Source: an uncultured bacterium (GTDB lineage Bacteria; Planctomycetota; Phycisphaerae; Phycisphaerales; SM1A02). Taken from it: a DNA stretch of 35,054 bases. The notes under the pieces are model-generated. The model saw nothing but the letters and a program-made list of their open reading frames with translations, had not been told where the DNA came from and did not search any database. The DNA lies in the NCBI GenBank assembly GCA_903891095.1, contig CAITDI010000038.1:1-35054 (forward strand), written 5' to 3'. Both the position numbers and the translations under genes were made by a program. This document shows positions 13,135-35,054 of this stretch, piece after piece (position 1 is the stretch's first letter; each line of letters begins with the position of its first letter).

Positions 13135-13220
13135 CCACGGCCGCACGCCTAGTAGCGCCACGGCCGCACGCTAGTAGCGCCACGGCCGCACGCCAGTAGC
13201 GCCACGCCGCACGCCCAGTG
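13135..13220. repeat. 22-23-bp tandem repeat, about four copies
   Basis: Units start at 13135, 13158, 13180 and 13202 with consensus CCACGGCCGCACGCTAGTAG plus CG; the fourth is degenerate. The array begins right at the end of the preceding gene. The rest of the gap up to 13505 holds only a 7-bp inverted repeat (CGAACCC at 13303, GGGTTCG at 13321) and no convincing gene. Confidence 0.85.
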
Positions 13221-20929: not shown

Positions 20930-22261
20930 ATGCGCGGCTTTCGCAAAGACACTCCCCTGCGACACGATCTCCACGCCTGCACGGGCGACGGGATGACGTA
21001 CTCGTTCATGGTCGGCACGGGCGAGACATACATCGCGGTGTTCGCGCTGGCCCTCGGGTCGAGCGACAAGATGAGCGGGCTCGTGGCCGCGGTGCCGCCG
21101 CTCGTCGGCGCGACCGCGCAGCTGTTCGCGCCTGCGCTCGCCGCGCGCGTCAAGAGCCCGTCGCGCTGGATCCGCGGCTGTGCGACGCTGCAGGTGCTGA
21201 GCTTCCTCCCGATGATCGTGGGCGCGCTGATCGGCGCGCTGCCGATCTGGGTGCTCTTCGTGGTCGCGGGCGTGTACTGGACGAGCGCGCTCGGCGCGGG
21301 CGGCGTGTGGAACACATGGATCGGGCTCACGATGCCGTCGCGCATCCGGCCCCGGTACTTCGGCATCCGCAGCCGGTTGTGCCAGGCGTCGATCCTCGCG
21401 GGGCTCATCGTCGCTGCGGTGATCCTCAAGCCGACGCACGGAACCAAGTGGGAATTGTGGGGCTTTGCCGCGCTCTTCGCCATCGCCGCGACCGCGCGGG
21501 GAATGAGCATCCCGTACCTCAAGCGGCAGCGCGATCCCGACAGCTGGCCCGAGCACACGCCGGTCCCGCTCTGGCATTTCCTCGCGAACTTCTGGCACCG
21601 CACCGACGCGCGACTCGTCGCGCTGATGATCGCCATGCAGGTCGCGGTGCAGATGGGGCAGCCGTTCCTCAACCCGTATCTCATCAAGCAGCTCGATGTG
21701 TCGCCCGCGTGGTACGTGGCGCTCATCGCGACGAGCTTCGCGGCGAAGAGCCTGGCGCTGCCGTTCCTCGGCATGTACGCCAAACGCAACGGCGCGCGCA
21801 GCCTGCTCGCGCTCGGGGCGATCGGCACGGCCGCGATGATCGTGCCGTGGATCTTCGCCGACTGGATGCCCGAGATGTTCGCGATCCAGGCCGTGAGCGG
21901 CGTGGCGCAGGGCGCGTGGGAACTCGCGACGTTCCTGCTGTTCCTCGAGACGATTCCGTCGGAGGAGCGCACGAGCATCATGAGCGGGTTCTACTTTCTC
22001 AACTCGCTGGCGATGGCGGGCGGATCGCTCGTGGGCGCGTGGCTGCTCGGCAACCTGCCGACGCACGACTCGTACGCGCTGGTGTTCGGCGTGTCGACGG
22101 GCATGCGGATGGTCGCGCTGATGCTGCTGCCATTCGTGCACACCGAGGTGCTCAAGGCAATCCCGATCATCTCGTCGACGCTCGCGGTGCGGATCAACGC
22201 GGGATCGATCGAATCGCCGATCCCGGATTCGATCGCGAACCGGCCGCCTCAGTCGAAGTAA
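20930..22261 (+). CDS. MFS transporter
   Basis: A 443-residue integral membrane protein with about 11-12 helices: TYIAVFALALGSSDKMSGLV, VLSFLPMIVGALIGALPIW, SILAGLIVAAVILKP, FAALFAIAATARGM, LVALMIAMQVAVQMG, LLALGAIGTAAMIVPWIF and FYFLNSLAMAGGSLVGAWLL. The IWVLFVVAGVYWTSALGAGG and WNTWIGLTMPSRIRPRYFG segments, a helix followed by a conserved basic loop, fit the major facilitator superfamily. Substrate is unknown. The ATG at 20930 was chosen over a TTG at 20873, which lies inside the terminator hairpin of the preceding gene. It is followed after 26 nt by a glycosyltransferase gene and may share its transcript, which could hint at a polymer- or lipid-related role. Confidence 0.83.
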   Translation: MRGFRKDTPLRHDLHACTGDGMTYSFMVGTGETYIAVFALALGSSDKMSGLVAAVPPLVGATAQLFAPALAARVKSPSRWIRGCATLQVLSFLPMIVGALIGALPIWVLFVVAGVYWTSALGAGGVWNTWIGLTMPSRIRPRYFGIRSRLCQASILAGLIVAAVILKPTHGTKWELWGFAALFAIAATARGMSIPYLKRQRDPDSWPEHTPVPLWHFLANFWHRTDARLVALMIAMQVAVQMGQPFLNPYLIKQLDVSPAWYVALIATSFAAKSLALPFLGMYAKRNGARSLLALGAIGTAAMIVPWIFADWMPEMFAIQAVSGVAQGAWELATFLLFLETIPSEERTSIMSGFYFLNSLAMAGGSLVGAWLLGNLPTHDSYALVFGVSTGMRMVALMLLPFVHTEVLKAIPIISSTLAVRINAGSIESPIPDSIANRPPQSK

Positions 22262-22287
22262 GGCGACCGAAGAAGGCCAGCACACGC

Positions 22288-23976
22288 ATGACCGACGCGC
22301 GCCGACATCCCCTGCTGATCGCTGCGATCCTGGCGGGCGTCGCGTGCCTCGCGCTCGCGGCGGTGCCGACGGCGAGCTACGCGGGTGCGTTCGCGCATCC
22401 CGCGCGCATCGAGAAGCTCGGCGGCGCGATTCCCGAGGCGACGGTGCGCGGCGCGGAATTCTTCCGGTTCGCGCTCGCGGTCGCGGGCGTGCTGATCCCC
22501 GCGCTCGCGTGGCGGCTGGTGACGATGTGCGAGTTCTCCGCGCGCCCCGCGCGCCGCGCGATGCCCAACACGCGCGCGCAGTGGATGTGGCTGCTCGTCG
22601 TGTGCGCGGCAGGCGCGTTGCTGCGCGTGATCCTCGCGTCGCAGAGCCTGTGGTACGACGAGATCTCGGCGTTTCTCTCGTTCGCGATCGAGGGGCCGGG
22701 CGTGGCGTTCGGCTCGTACGCGGTGCCGACGAACCATGTGCCGATGACGCTCGCGGTCTGGCTTGCGTGGACGCTCACCGACTCGACCGCGGAACTCGTG
22801 CTGCGCGCGCCTGCGTTGATCGCGGGCATCGCGGCGATTCCCGTGGCGTATGCGCTTGCGGGCACGCTCTTCGGGCGGCGCGCCGCGATCGCAGGCGCCG
22901 CGGTGATGGCGGTCGCGCCGATCGCGGTGATCGAGAGCGCGGAGGCGCGCGGGTACTCGTTCGTCATCCTCGGCGCGATGGTCGCGGCGCTTGCGCTCGC
23001 ACGCGCGGAGCGGACGCGCGCGGCGGGCGACTACGCGCTGTTCGCCGTCGCGTGCGCGTTCGCGGCGTGGAGCCATCCGGTGGCGATACTCCTTCCGATA
23101 TCAGCGGGGATCGTCGGCCTCGTGCGCGACCGACGGCTCGCGGTCGCCTGCGTGCTTGCGGGCGTGATCGCGGCGGTGCTGCTTTCGCCGCTCGCGGGCG
23201 ATGTGCTCGCGACGCGCGCCGACTACGCGCACACGCGCGCGGGGCAGCCGACGGTGTTCTCGATCGAGGGATACGAAGGAGTGCTTGGGCTCGCGCTCTC
23301 GTGGAGCGGATCGCTGCGCGGAATGTGGTGGTTGCCGAACATCTGGCTGTGGCTGCTGTTTGCGGCGGGACTCACGCGAATCCTCCGTGTGAAGGCGGTG
23401 GTCGGCGACATCTCGCCTGCGCTGCTCGCGCGCGCGGGGCGCGTGATGCTGCCGTTTGCAGTGGCGTTTGCGCTCGCGTTCGTGCTCTCGATGGCGATGG
23501 GCACGTGGATCTACGCGCGGTTCCTGCTGTTCGCGCTGCCGATCGGCGTGGTGGTGATCGTGGTGGGAATGCGGTTGCCAAGCTCGCCTGCGGGGCTGCT
23601 GCTGGTCCTGCTGATTGGCGCGGCCCACGGACTTGCGGGGTACACGAGCAAGCAGCCGATTCGCGATGCCGTCGAGCTGGTGGCGCGCGCGCGCGCCGCG
23701 GATGACGCGGTCGCGACGATCGGCCTGCCGGACAACGCGGTGGGGTTCTACGCGCAGATGTATGGATTTGAGGCAAAGCCCACGGGGTTTCTTGGCGAGG
23801 GGCTTGGGCGCGTGATCGAGTCGGACCATCCGAAGTTCGTGATCGTGCTGTATCCCGAGCGGCTCGACCGACTGACGATGGCGACGCTCGACGATGCGTA
23901 CGACCGCACGCGAAGGCTCGAAGGCTGGGCAGACTGGGGCCACGGGGCCGTCGAGATCTGGCAGCGGACGAGGTAG
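22288..23976 (+). CDS. GT-C-fold glycosyltransferase-like membrane protein
   Basis: A 562-residue protein with about 11-13 membrane helices and two soluble parts. The first extracytoplasmic loop carries the acidic motif SLWYDEISAF just after a helix, as in GT39/ArnT-like enzymes that use polyprenyl-linked sugars. Further family-like pieces are VPTNHVPMTLAVWLAWTL, ESAEARGYSFVILGAMVAAL (the 'E.RGY' after helix four is characteristic) and YARFLLFALPIGVVVIVV. The C-terminal domain (PIRDAVELVARARAADDAVA ... MYGFEAKP) is predicted outside the membrane. It probably transfers a sugar from a lipid carrier to an envelope acceptor; donor and acceptor are unknown. The ATG has AAGAAGG upstream and lies 26 nt after the MFS gene. 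Confidence 0.84.
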   Translation: MTDARRHPLLIAAILAGVACLALAAVPTASYAGAFAHPARIEKLGGAIPEATVRGAEFFRFALAVAGVLIPALAWRLVTMCEFSARPARRAMPNTRAQWMWLLVVCAAGALLRVILASQSLWYDEISAFLSFAIEGPGVAFGSYAVPTNHVPMTLAVWLAWTLTDSTAELVLRAPALIAGIAAIPVAYALAGTLFGRRAAIAGAAVMAVAPIAVIESAEARGYSFVILGAMVAALALARAERTRAAGDYALFAVACAFAAWSHPVAILLPISAGIVGLVRDRRLAVACVLAGVIAAVLLSPLAGDVLATRADYAHTRAGQPTVFSIEGYEGVLGLALSWSGSLRGMWWLPNIWLWLLFAAGLTRILRVKAVVGDISPALLARAGRVMLPFAVAFALAFVLSMAMGTWIYARFLLFALPIGVVVIVVGMRLPSSPAGLLLVLLIGAAHGLAGYTSKQPIRDAVELVARARAADDAVATIGLPDNAVGFYAQMYGFEAKPTGFLGEGLGRVIESDHPKFVIVLYPERLDRLTMATLDDAYDRTRRLEGWADWGHGAVEIWQRTR

Positions 23977-24010
23977 TCGAGCGAGCGTAGGGACGGACGT
24001 CGAACGAGAC

Positions 24011-24145
24011 AACGGGTGGCCTCAGGCCGCCGAGTCGGGCGATGTGGTGGTGGGCTTGAGATCACCGGCGGAGCATGAGGGTGGGCGTATGGACTCGCGA
24101 GGGCCGAGTCGACTCGGCTTTCGAGTCTCCTCGCCCCCACCCTCG
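24011..24145. repeat. 135-bp direct repeat, unit 1, with long hairpin
   Basis: It shares most of its sequence with 24174-24307 at a period of 163 bp. Inside, arms GAGGGTGGG (24077-24085) and CCCACCCTC (24136-24144) enclose a pair GACTCG/CGAGTC and a perfect 16-bp palindrome GCCGAGTCGACTCGGC (24103-24118). The gap 23977-24497 contains no gene that I can support; these repeats fill it. Confidence 0.85.
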
Positions 24146-24173
24146 TCACGGACGACGAACGGACGAACGAACC

Positions 24174-24307
24174 AACGGGTGCCCTCAGGCCGCCGAGGCG
24201 AGCGACGTGGTGGTGGGCTTGACATCAGCGGCGAAGCCTGAGGGTGGGCGTACGGACTCGCGAGGGCCGAGTCGACTCGGCTTCCGAGTCACCTCACCCC
24301 CACCCTC
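24174..24307. repeat. 135-bp direct repeat, unit 2, with long hairpin
   Basis: The same architecture as unit 1: outer arms at 24240-24248 and 24299-24307 and the same 16-bp palindrome at 24266-24281. Several substitutions separate the two units, so the duplication is not recent. Confidence 0.85.
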
Positions 24308-24407
24308 GGTCTCGGCCATGACGGTGGGCGTGGAGTTCCACGGCCCTCGACTGGCCGGACCAAGGGCACCCCCGTTACGGACGACGGACGACGTGGAGTT
24401 TCTCACA

Positions 24408-24475
24408 CGAGTCGGCGAAGCCTAAAGGTGGGCGTGCGAACTCGCGAGAGCCGAGTCTCCTCACCCCCACCCCCG
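24408..24475. repeat. partial, decayed third copy of the 135-bp repeat
   Basis: It keeps the AGTCGGCGAAGCCT..GGTGGGCGT and ACTCGCGAGAGCCGAGTC pieces and the CCCCCACCC end, but has lost half of the central palindrome. Confidence 0.65.
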
Positions 24476-24497
24476 TCAACGTCATTTCAAACCGCCG

Positions 24498-24809
24498 TCA
24501 CCCGCCGAGCAGCTCGGTGATCTCGCGATCCGCGAACGGAAACCGCATGCGCGCCATCGCGGCGTCGAGGCGCTCGCGCAACGGAAAGTCACGCCGGTGC
24601 CGCGCGTAGAACAGCAGCACCGCGCGTCCCACATCGGCGGGCGTCCGCGCGCCATCGGGCGAGAACACGTTGTAATCAGCCCACGAAAGCCGCAGTTCGT
24701 GCAGCGTCGAGCCCTCGGCAGCGTCGATCGACGCGTGCCAGATCCACGATTGATCGGCCTCGCGCTCGGCGCCGAGGCGGATCGTGGGAAGTAGCTCGTC
24801 AGACGACAT
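24498..24809 (-). CDS. small protein of unknown function
   Basis: A 103-residue soluble protein, MSSDELLPTIRLGAERE onward, with a mixed alpha/beta look. It contains SWIWHASIDAAEGSTLHELR, LSWADYNVFSPDG and a helical C-terminus (AVLLFYARHRRDFPLRERLD). No signal, membrane segment or known motif is seen and I do not recognise the family. It is divergent from the ABC permease gene, with only 27 nt between the two start codons, so the promoters must overlap the coding ends or face each other. There is no Shine-Dalgarno. Codon use is like that of its neighbours, which supports a real gene. Confidence 0.7.
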   Translation of the reverse strand: MSSDELLPTIRLGAEREADQSWIWHASIDAAEGSTLHELRLSWADYNVFSPDGARTPADVGRAVLLFYARHRRDFPLRERLDAAMARMRFPFADREITELLGG

Positions 24810-24836
24810 CGACGGAGGATACCATCGCGATTTCGC

Positions 24837-26165
24837 ATGGGCTTCTTCCTCGAGATCTTCCGCCTCGGCCTCCGCAACCTGCGGCTTCACAAGCTGCGGT
24901 CGACGCTCACCAGCCTCGGCATCATCCTCGGCGTCGCCGCGGTGATCGTGGTCGTCGCGGTCGGCGAGGGCAACAAGATCAGCGCGCTGCGCGAGGTCTC
25001 GGCGCTCGGCGCGACCAACATCATCGTGCGCTCGTCCAAGCCTCCGGAGGCCGCGAACGCGGGCCAGGCGCGCACATTCTTCGTGGCGTACGGCCTCCTT
25101 CGGCAGGATCTCCGCCGCCTGCAGGGCGCGATGCCCGATGCGTCGTCGCTCGTGCCGCTCAAGGCGGTCGGCTCCGACGTGTCGTACGAGAACCAGCGCG
25201 TCACCAGCCAGGTCTTCGGCTCGACGCCCGATCTTCTCGATGTGGCGCGCCTCCGCCTCGAGCCGCGCGGCCGCTACATCAGCGACGAGGACCTCGTCGC
25301 GCGCGCGCCCGTGTGCGTGATCGGCAGCGAGATCGCCAAGCAGTTCTTCCGCCTGCGCGATCCGATCGGCGCGACGATCAAGGTCGACAACACGGTGTTC
25401 CGCGTGATCGGCGTGCTGGAGCCGATCGGCCTCGCGGGCGGACGCGGCTCCGCGCTCGTCGGCCGCGACCTCAACAAGGACATCCACATCCCGATTACCA
25501 CCGCCGAGACGCAGTTCGGCGACATGGTCATGCGCCGGCAGTCGGGCTCGTTCAGCGGCGAGCAGATCGAGCTTTCCGAGCTCTATGTCGTCGCGCCGAA
25601 CACCGATTCGGTCGTGCCGCTCGCCGAGCGCGTGCGCCGCGTGATCGACGCGGGCCACCCTGGCCTCACCGACGTGCAGATCGTCGTGCCGTGGGAACTC
25701 CTCGAGAACGCCAAGCGCCAGATGATGGTGTGGAACGTGATGCTCGTCGTGGTCGCGGCGATCTCGCTCCTCGTCGGCGGCATCGGCATCATGAACATCA
25801 TGCTCGCGAGCGTGACCGAACGCACGCGCGAGATCGGCATCCGCCGCGCGCTCGGCGCGACGCGCAAGCACATCGTGCTGCAGTTCCTCGTCGAGACGGG
25901 CGCCCTGTCGACGCTCGGCGGCGTGATCGGCATCCTGCTCGGCGTCGGCATCTCGCTCGGCCTGCATCCGCTGATCGAGGCGATCGTGCGCCTGCCGATG
26001 CTCGTGGGCGCGTTCGACGGCCGCCTCACGCTCGAGCCGCGGATCACGACGTGGTCGATCGTCGTGAGCTTCGTGGTCGCCGCGGGCGTCGGGCTGGTGT
26101 TCGGCATCTATCCGGCGATCATCGCGAGCCGGAAGGACCCGATCGAAGCGCTGCGCCACGATTGA
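24837..26165 (+). CDS. ABC transporter permease, MacB/FtsX type
   Basis: A 442-residue protein with the four-helix MacB layout. Helix one follows LGLRNLRLHKLRSTLTSLGI, the conserved cytoplasmic entry of this family (IILGVAAVIVVVAVGEG). A periplasmic MacB_PCD-type domain of about 230 residues follows (NIIVRSSKPPE to MMVWN). The C-terminal FtsX domain includes GGIGIMNIMLASVTERTREI and GIRRALGATRKHIVLQFLVE. It ends PAIIASRKDPIEALRHD, the usual terminal motif. Such permeases dimerise and work with a LolD/MacB-like ATPase as mechanotransmitters or lipoprotein/peptide exporters. No ATPase or adaptor gene is adjacent, so the partner must be encoded elsewhere. Confidence 0.93.
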   Translation: MGFFLEIFRLGLRNLRLHKLRSTLTSLGIILGVAAVIVVVAVGEGNKISALREVSALGATNIIVRSSKPPEAANAGQARTFFVAYGLLRQDLRRLQGAMPDASSLVPLKAVGSDVSYENQRVTSQVFGSTPDLLDVARLRLEPRGRYISDEDLVARAPVCVIGSEIAKQFFRLRDPIGATIKVDNTVFRVIGVLEPIGLAGGRGSALVGRDLNKDIHIPITTAETQFGDMVMRRQSGSFSGEQIELSELYVVAPNTDSVVPLAERVRRVIDAGHPGLTDVQIVVPWELLENAKRQMMVWNVMLVVVAAISLLVGGIGIMNIMLASVTERTREIGIRRALGATRKHIVLQFLVETGALSTLGGVIGILLGVGISLGLHPLIEAIVRLPMLVGAFDGRLTLEPRITTWSIVVSFVVAAGVGLVFGIYPAIIASRKDPIEALRHD

Positions 26166-26171
26166 ATCTGG

Positions 26172-26260
26172 GCGGGCGCAGCTGCGGCTGCTTTGTTGTC
26201 TTGAGCGGGCGCAGCTGCGGCTGCTTTCGTAGTTTGAGCGGTCGCAGCTGCGGCTGCTTC
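26172..26260. repeat. 33-nt tandem repeat, three copies, each with a small hairpin
   Basis: Units start at 26172, 26205 and 26238. Each contains CGCAGCTGCGGCTGCTT, which can fold as GCAGC-TGCG-GCTGC followed by T-rich sequence. They lie directly after the permease stop, between convergent genes. One frame would read GRSCGCF three times, but no start or signal supports translation. Confidence 0.88.
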
Positions 26261-34249: not shown

Positions 34250-34296
34250 GTGCCTGGCACGTGCCATGAGGTGCCGAGCACCTCATGGCACGTGCC
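34250..34296. repeat. REP-like palindrome, complete unit left of the RAYT gene
   Basis: A perfect 19-bp inverted repeat (34256-34274 with 34278-34296) with a CGA loop; the arm begins GGCACGTGCCATGAGG and includes the self-palindrome GGCACGTGCC. It is preceded by GTGCCT at 34250. The unit lies between the pdxH stop and the RAYT stop, where its stem could terminate both converging transcripts. Confidence 0.92.
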
Positions 34297-34332: not shown

Positions 34333-34941
34333 TCATCGATACCCCGCCGAGCTGCACTCCCCCGATGATGCGGCGATACACGCCCACTCCACGTCCTGGA
34401 GTTCCTCCTCATTCAGCTCCGTCCCAATCAACGCACGCCATCCGCGGGCATCCGCGAGCTCGCCGCGCAAATCGACGTTGATCAGCGGCCAACGTCGCCC
34501 CATGCCGCAGTGCGTACCCGCACTCGACCACTCCCAGTCCGTCGGTTTGCTGACAAGATCGGCCTCCACCGGATTGCGCTCGATGTAACGGAGCGCATTG
34601 ATGGTGTGTCGCGGCGACATCGCGGCGGCGAAGTATCTCCCCTCCCAATTGGTGCCCCGCGCCCCGCGCTTGCGATTGAGATGCTCCGAGTACTTGCGAT
34701 GCGTCCTCCCGAAGCAGTCCGCCAGCGACCGTGTGCTTGATGGCACCGCGACCACGTGAATGTGGTTGTTCATCAAGCAGAATCCACCGATGCGCGTGCC
34801 CGTGAGCCGACTAAAGCGGTGTAGCAGCGCGAGGTAATACCTTCGGTCGACATCGTTCTCGAAGAGTTCCTGCTTGTGGTTGCCACGGTGCGCGATGTGA
34901 TGTGGCACGTCCAGTTCGGCGTGTCGTCTCGGTCTCCCCAT
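34333..34941 (-). CDS. REP-associated tyrosine transposase (RAYT, Y1 HUH family)
   Basis: A 202-residue single-strand DNA transposase-like protein. The HUH motif is HIH at residues 60-62 (FCLMNNHIHVVAVP), after the conserved front HHIAHRGNHKQELFEND and LALLHRFSRLTG. The catalytic Tyr is residue 119 in RYIERNPVEADLV, followed by the DWEWSSAG box typical of RAYTs (usually 'Y.WSS...'). WEGRYFAAAM matches the 'W..RF' block. The start is the ATG with a perfect AAGGAGG site 5 nt upstream; a longer frame to 35034 exists but lacks this site. Copies of a 26-nt palindrome-forming repeat flank the gene in the same orientation. RAYTs are single-copy domesticated relatives of IS200/IS605 that spread REP elements (family knowledge). 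Confidence 0.94.
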   Translation of the reverse strand: MGRPRRHAELDVPHHIAHRGNHKQELFENDVDRRYYLALLHRFSRLTGTRIGGFCLMNNHIHVVAVPSSTRSLADCFGRTHRKYSEHLNRKRGARGTNWEGRYFAAAMSPRHTINALRYIERNPVEADLVSKPTDWEWSSAGTHCGMGRRWPLINVDLRGELADARGWRALIGTELNEEELQDVEWACIAASSGECSSAGYR

Positions 34942-35023
34942 ACTGACCTCCTTGTTGGCGACGAAGGTAGCGAGGCATTCGCGCGGGCCTGGAATTGCCA
35001 CAGTTTTTCGGAAGATTGGCGCG

Positions 35024-35054
35024 GTGCCTGGCACGTGCCATGAGGTGCCCGGCA
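35024..35054. repeat. REP-like palindrome, right unit, cut by the window end
   Basis: Positions 35024-35049 repeat 34250-34275 exactly in the same orientation. The next bases (loop CCG, then GCA) match the start of the second arm, so the hairpin most likely continues past the window. Confidence 0.85.

Follow-up and report, generated by a model that had tools for sequence, protein, structure and literature searches.

What fills the gap between two facing genes in this planctomycete contig, and how did it come to lie there? The window, by which we mean the whole stretch of 35,054 nucleotides analysed here, corresponds to contig C38 of a draft genome that comprises 131 contigs and 3.6 Mb. At 24011-24475 a reading made from the letters alone (the sequence-only reading) had noticed intergenic hairpin-forming repeats with a 163-bp period and had offered three candidates for them: a family of non-coding RNAs, an array of protein-binding sites or a degenerating mobile repeat. 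The mobile repeat is the candidate that the evidence supports, as copies are dispersed, their ends are precise and at two loci the corresponding gap of congeners is much shorter; "degenerating" describes many copies well, and does not hold for the complete ones, which persist. The repeats may also act as non-coding RNA or as protein-binding sites. We regard it as probable that this is a family of non-autonomous, REPIN/BIME-like mobile palindromic elements, which probably work as REPINs and BIMEs do.

The repeat unit

The features of the locus on which the argument draws are the following.

23977-24497, no strand: block between two facing stop codons, nearly all of it missing from the gap of 13 congeners (521 bp here, -28 to 92 bp there)
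24014-24145, + strand: copy 1, with H1 arm (24014-24085) and centre (24078-24143), without right arm
24177-24371, + strand: copy 2, complete 195-bp element, with H1 (24177-24248), centre (24241-24306) and inverted H2 (24299-24371); clover fold with z of -4.29 (DNA parameters) and -4.82 (RNA parameters)
24413-24478, + strand: third copy, a decayed fragment (repeat families D2 and D3; 24413-24457 match at 89%)
22288-23976, + strand: left neighbour gene, 3' end towards the repeats, within open reading frame 21307-23976; Pfam PMT_2; orthologue in 13 congeners
24498-24824, - strand: right neighbour, a small gene, 3' end towards the repeats; 77-91% identity in 13 congeners; without Pfam or NCBIfam match; missed by the gene caller
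24837-26165, + strand: MacB/FtsX-like permease gene, used as the marker for retrieving orthologous loci

Much of the anatomy given by the sequence-only reading is found again. The GAGGGTGGG/CCCACCCTC stem (24077-24085 pairing with 24136-24144 in copy 1), the GACTCG/CGAGTC stem and the 16-bp palindrome GCCGAGTCGACTCGGC (24103-24118 in copy 1) are all present; there are two units and a decayed third, which lacks the central palindrome; and the gap appears free of genes, the caller placing none within the repeats. The repeats are thus real, and what has to be given up is 163 bp as their natural unit. Stretches 24001-24145 and 24164-24308 share 90% identity and lie 163 bp apart, a period that reflects a local duplication taking in flanking DNA (repeat family D4). 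The natural unit is 195 bp long and consists of two homologous, inverted hairpin arms (72-74 bp) flanking a central palindrome: the H1 arm, of 72 bp, begins with GGGTGCCCT, and the inverted H2 arm, of 72-74 bp, terminates in AGGGCACCC, so that GGGTGCCCT and AGGGCACCC are the ends of the element. Eleven complete copies could be aligned; they are 194-196 bp long, a length that stays constant even though they are mutually only 75-94% identical, and length variants occur on contigs C130 (170 bp) and C19 (221 bp). The window holds a single complete copy.

Folding points to the same unit. The complete copy forms a three-armed clover closed by a 9-bp outer stem, and none of 200 shuffles folded as well with either parameter set. 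For the 163-bp frames the advantage over shuffles is slight (z of -1.78 and -1.26) and the complete copies elsewhere measure 194-196 bp, and for these reasons the 163-bp unit was rejected; a local tandem period can evidently mask the true repeat unit. A coding repeat was likewise rejected, since called genes overlap none of the 30 clusters of copies described below. No Rfam 15 family reached its gathering score in the window, and no tRNA or known RNA was found there.

Copies and their insertion sites

A genome-wide search found other copies, and so the objection foreseen by the sequence-only reading, that there might be none, does not arise. Searching this genome with the hairpin and centre gave 67 matches; the arms, searched as a covariance model, gave 60, which were merged into 30 clusters after one 36-bp hit on contig C61 had been excluded. 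This copy number of about 30 clusters lies below the REP norm of more than 100 per genome given in an extract of PMC2817692. The element has terminal inverted repeats, many copies are truncated, and in the alignment every column other than those of the GGGTG reaches at most 0.36 bits, from which it follows that the ends are exact at unrelated loci.

The neighbourhoods of orthologous genes in congeners suggest how the block arose. In 13 congeners the facing stop codons at the window locus are separated by -28, -9, 0, 0, 3, 4, 6, 7, 12, 23, 23, 23 and 92 bp (in two other congeners the marker gene is represented by a distant paralogue alone, and they stand outside this comparison), and since the distance is 521 bp here the block has been inserted. 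The gap between the tolC-like gene and sua on C28 tells a similar story, with 392 bp here against 6-112 bp in 14 congeners. The gap on C65 between trpS and a gene that we take to be apaG measures 312 bp here; it is at most 81 bp in seven of the 14 congeners scored and 313-972 bp in the other seven. Six congeners retain both hutU and sua, with about 103 to 744 bp between them. Insertion thus appears to agree with the gaps at the window and tolC-like/sua loci, and the picture is mixed at the other two. We infer movement from the dispersed copies of this genome and from the gaps of its congeners. Short tandem repeats of about 24-30 bp occupy the same convergent gaps in two of the congeners, G004 (locus L055) and G007 (L124), and the window itself has further tandem arrays at or near gene ends (13135-13215 and 26172-26259; 22 bp in 3.7 copies and 33 bp in 2.7 copies).

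We propose that the element spread as one precise 195-bp unit into intergenic gaps. Its copies have decayed by truncation and by local tandem duplication, which produced the 163-bp period. Local duplication and truncation could also be taken as the whole explanation, the repeats having spread by recombination and duplication of intergenic DNA and never having been mobile. Duplications that include flanks do occur, both in the window and on C43, where two copies share identical 20-bp flanks, and many copies are truncated; against this, the same exact boundaries recur at unrelated loci, the length is constant despite divergence and the congeners' gaps are small at two loci, which together leave a non-mobile origin hardly credible.

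Long terminal inverted repeats, exact ends, a small constant size and the want of coding capacity would equally suit a classical MITE, that is, a deletion derivative of a DDE transposon that retains its ends and is moved by the transposase of its parent. Target-site duplications of 2 bp or more are present at one of 13 elements where shuffling leads one to expect 1.02, though very old duplications might have decayed beyond this count. In none of the 30 clusters (five of them at contig ends, and with their neighbour genes identified in part) did the caller place a gene among the arms. The five genes between the two clusters on C49 encode a sigma factor, a radical-SAM protein and three proteins without a Pfam match, and neither these nor the genes beside the pairs on C28 and C65 are transposases as far as they are identified. 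Moreover, a DDE enzyme has no need of internal hairpins with compensatory changes. A MITE is in our judgement very unlikely.

Folding, pairing and covariation

The arms share one pattern, seen in 49 of them: GGGTG, a 9-bp stem, a bulge, a 5-bp stem and a loop of about 30 nt. The bulge, on the 3' side, consists of one or two bases, A or AA (GA in window copy 1), and across the 49 arms the bulged A is conserved and compensatory changes occur. Among 47 distinct arms, 97.4% of the cells of the 9-bp stem are paired, and its covariation score is 0.284, against 0.122 for shuffles and at most 0.062 for slid alignments; double-sided changes include C-G/T-A, A-T/G-C, G-C/T-A and T-A/G-C. The second stem occurs as CGGCC/GGCCG, CGCCG/CGGCG and CGGCG/CGCCG and is not fully paired in two of the 49 arms. 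Much of the covariation signal in the arms represents the separation of H1 from H2, and within the 11 complete elements alone covariation did not exceed that of shuffles.

The sequence-only reading had held that substitutions between its first two units often leave the stems paired. Between those units the idea fails: of four differences in the central stem, one pairs, two break pairing and one falls on a position already unpaired (counted by eye). The covariance that it expected is not to be had from units 1 and 2, nor from the 11 complete elements by themselves, and it does appear in the end hairpins, on which that reading was silent, when arms from the whole genome are compared. Pairing in the central stem amounts to 77% in the 11 complete elements.

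Wherever the 9-bp stem has a wobble cell, 16 in all, the pair is G.T when read on the strand beginning with GGGTG, and by eye none of the 11 unpaired cells is A.C. In H1 the GGGTG-first strand is the top one and in H2 the bottom one; an RNA copied from the whole element would hence have A.C mismatches in one of its arms. The compensatory changes of the end hairpins would fit single-stranded DNA and RNA equally.

The centre has its own regularity. It is 66 bp long in all 14 intact copies, a set that leaves aside duplicates in reverse orientation and four rows with degenerate or spurious hits, and the base adjoining its GGGTGGG/CCCACCC stem never pairs, because it is C on both sides in six copies and G on both sides in eight. 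In the window these mismatches lie at 24086/24135 and 24249/24298. Two close relatives, C28:31843 and C28:33121, differ at both mismatch positions simultaneously, and either inversion of the palindrome or selection for the mismatch could explain the switch between C/C and G/G.

Transposase genes

There is a candidate type of enzyme in the genome. Two genes encode Y1_Tnp proteins, one in the window (34333-35034, - strand), 10 kb from the repeats, and one at C117:6565-6897; both proteins score above the Pfam cut-off for Y1_Tnp, and with the NCBIfam model of REP-associated transposases they reach 54.8 and 51.6 bits, short of its cut-off of 80. Y1 genes lie at equal distance from the MacB-like gene in G004 and G007 as well. 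Both genes of this genome are flanked by GGCACGTGCC palindromes (34256-34296 and 35024-35054 in the window), which are unlike the arms of the element and have 101 matches genome-wide; many of these are at contig ends, so that this palindrome probably breaks the assembly. A Y1, RAYT-like system with multi-copy palindromes of its own thus exists in this genome, which we count in favour of a mobile element. The window transposase was considered as the owner of the 195-bp element and ruled out, because its flanking palindromes differ from the element's arms. GGTGCC occurs near the outer ends in both families, a link that is suggestive only.

A search for inverted repeats and GGGTGCC at 28 Y1-gene loci of the genus, 26 of them in congeners, returned GGCAC-type or other palindromes and none like the arms. 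No RAYT gene flanked by element arms was found in the 131-contig draft, from which a copy may be missing. Our proposal for the mechanism is that the element would move as single-stranded DNA in the clover fold and that its GGGTG ends would be cut in trans by a Y1/HUH transposase. As against a DDE or some other enzyme, we put this forward as plausible and with some reserve.

Position relative to genes

The copies are far from evenly placed among genes. With genes called by a codon model trained on this genome, 25 clusters have both neighbours visible, and 20 of them lie between convergent genes, five between tandem genes and none between divergent ones; at the five clusters on contig ends the visible neighbour turns its 3' end towards the element in four. 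A count made before the caller was retrained, on 27 clusters, had given 18 convergent, four tandem and five at ends. The background, about 0.43 Mb made up of the window and 20 further stretches, has 307 neighbour pairs, of which 40 are convergent, and the binomial probability of 20 in 25 is 5e-14. The window's own cluster owes its score as tandem solely to the small gene at 24498-24824, conserved in 13 congeners, which the caller overlooks.

The Y1-linked palindrome serves as a built-in comparison, being a second palindromic family in the same genome. Its 37 clusters in the stretches fetched comprise six convergent, eight tandem and two divergent sites, 20 with one neighbour and one that overlaps a gene call, and two of the six convergent sites flank a transposase gene that the caller missed. 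The convergent bias of the 195-bp element (20 of 25) is far above that of this family (six of 16 internal sites; Fisher p 0.009). Sides facing a gene's 3' end outnumber other sides by 49 to 6 for the element and by 32 to 17 for the Y1-linked palindrome, and since the latter also favours 3' ends, tolerance alone explains part of the bias. Convergent gaps may be the least harmful sites for insertion, or a preferred target. Here the insertion sites, the small gaps of the congeners, the constant 195-bp unit and the positional rule can be read together in one genome, which offers a test of whether gene ends merely tolerate REP-like elements or whether the elements are directed to such sites or retained there.

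The bias also invites the reading that the element is a structured 3'-end element under selection, in which each of two convergent transcripts ends in the hairpin of the nearer arm, stabilising the mRNA or blocking antisense read-through. Besides the excess over the RAYT-linked palindromes, the G.T wobbles argue for it, the GGGTG strand that carries all of them being the sense in which the facing gene transcribes the nearer arm. Yet the repeats contain no intrinsic terminator of hairpin and T-run (one site was found in 23800-24700, outside the repeats, where 0.5 are expected), some sites keep an apparent terminator hairpin next to the element (judged by eye), the congeners' small gaps show that the genes manage without it, and the RAYT-linked family too is found at gene 3' ends. 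We consider this reading rather unlikely. The element may all the same act at gene 3' ends, and such a role would be compatible with the mobile element that we prefer, because copies may first have transposed and later been kept for it. We also entertain, as distinctly unlikely, a transposing two-sided 3'-end module, aimed at or kept at convergent junctions, which would supply one 3' hairpin to each gene and of which the central mismatch, always G/G or C/C in the 14 intact copies, would be a working part.

Relation to known palindromic elements

Published systems are described here from extracts of the cited papers. REPINs are inverted doublets of REP sequences whose length is conserved, which show compensatory changes and which form tandem clusters together with their flanks (PMC3116915). 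The 195-bp element resembles REPINs and BIMEs in its inverted hairpin-forming repeats with a spacer, its dispersed and intergenic copies of constant length, its compensatory changes, its tandem clusters including flanks and its clover-type fold (PMC3116915). It differs from them in its arms, which are 72-74 bp long and have loops of some 30 nt, where REP palindromes measure 20-40 bp; in its outer GGGTG in place of a GTAG, GT[AG]G or CGTC tag (PMC3733652, PMC6006769); and in its about 30 clusters, with no RAYT gene found between element arms. Because tag, size and RAYT linkage fail, we do not claim membership of the REPINs or BIMEs.

Other parallels are partial as well. Some RAYT-like genes bear long terminal inverted repeats (PMC3733652), and TIRtrons, the TIR families of RAYT-like (TIRYT) genes, share with the element long terminal inverted repeats in moderately abundant families (PMC3733652); the element's arms, however, flank no Y1 gene, and both Y1 genes carry the other palindrome. 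With MITEs the element shares a short, non-coding body, long inverted ends and precise boundaries, and differs in having no target-site duplication and no autonomous partner that could be found. The class 3 enzymes are associated with atypical structures (PMC6006769). GTAG- and CGTC-tagged REPs lie mainly in unidirectional and convergent gaps, and G.T pairs in REPs have been read as a hint of RNA roles (both PMC3733652), while REPs between convergent genes have been tied to supercoiling and to safe insertion (PMC1525189). No description of the 195-bp family was found in extracts of the open-licence literature, PMC12306157 included. The element is of a known kind, the non-autonomous palindromic mobile repeat, in a new and elaborate form: its arms are large and bulged, its palindromic spacer keeps a fixed mismatch, its target sites are not duplicated and its preference for convergent gaps is striking.

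Distribution in other genomes

The arm covariance model gave no match in 40 other genomes, 15 of them congeners, with 120 candidates scored per genome under strict filters, and an 82-bp probe gave none in 60 other genomes. A decayed relic, which the arm model missed, is nevertheless present in the congener G008 (C107:757-845; L159 757-845) and retains the central palindrome together with a portion of H2. It was first met as a 52-bp match in a shallow scan, with two candidates scored per genome, and of the eight other short matches in that scan the three stretches inspected look like chance. With the whole-element profile the relic reaches an E-value of 3e-11 in 0.95 Mb of sequence from outside this genome, where it is the sole relative by element and arm profiles. 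A family confined to this species is ruled out by it. Its gap was read as divergent by a caller trained on another species, which runs counter to the convergent rule. Against a mobile element stand this relic outside the species, the trpS/apaG and hutU/sua loci, which are not clean, the covariation among the 11 complete elements, which stays within that of shuffles, and the fact that no enzyme is tied to the element; the relic itself leaves our estimate of mobility unchanged.

Congeners have dispersed palindromic repeats of their own, other in sequence and about 95 and 140 bp long, with GGGTGCCC beside a hairpin (G009, L121 2594-2813; G005, L132 2142-2355, L245 and L247). They prompted the idea that GGGTG is a hairpin tag throughout the genus, to which tag scans lent no support; the element's own loci, the positive control, failed in these scans too because the loops of the arms exceed the length limit that was set, and the scans are not a fair negative. 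Finally, locus L043 (CAIKNO010000004.1), filed under an uncultured Sandaracinus metagenome-assembled genome, matches contig C66 of the present genome at 99.9% identity over 1410 bp and was for that reason probably binned under the wrong name.
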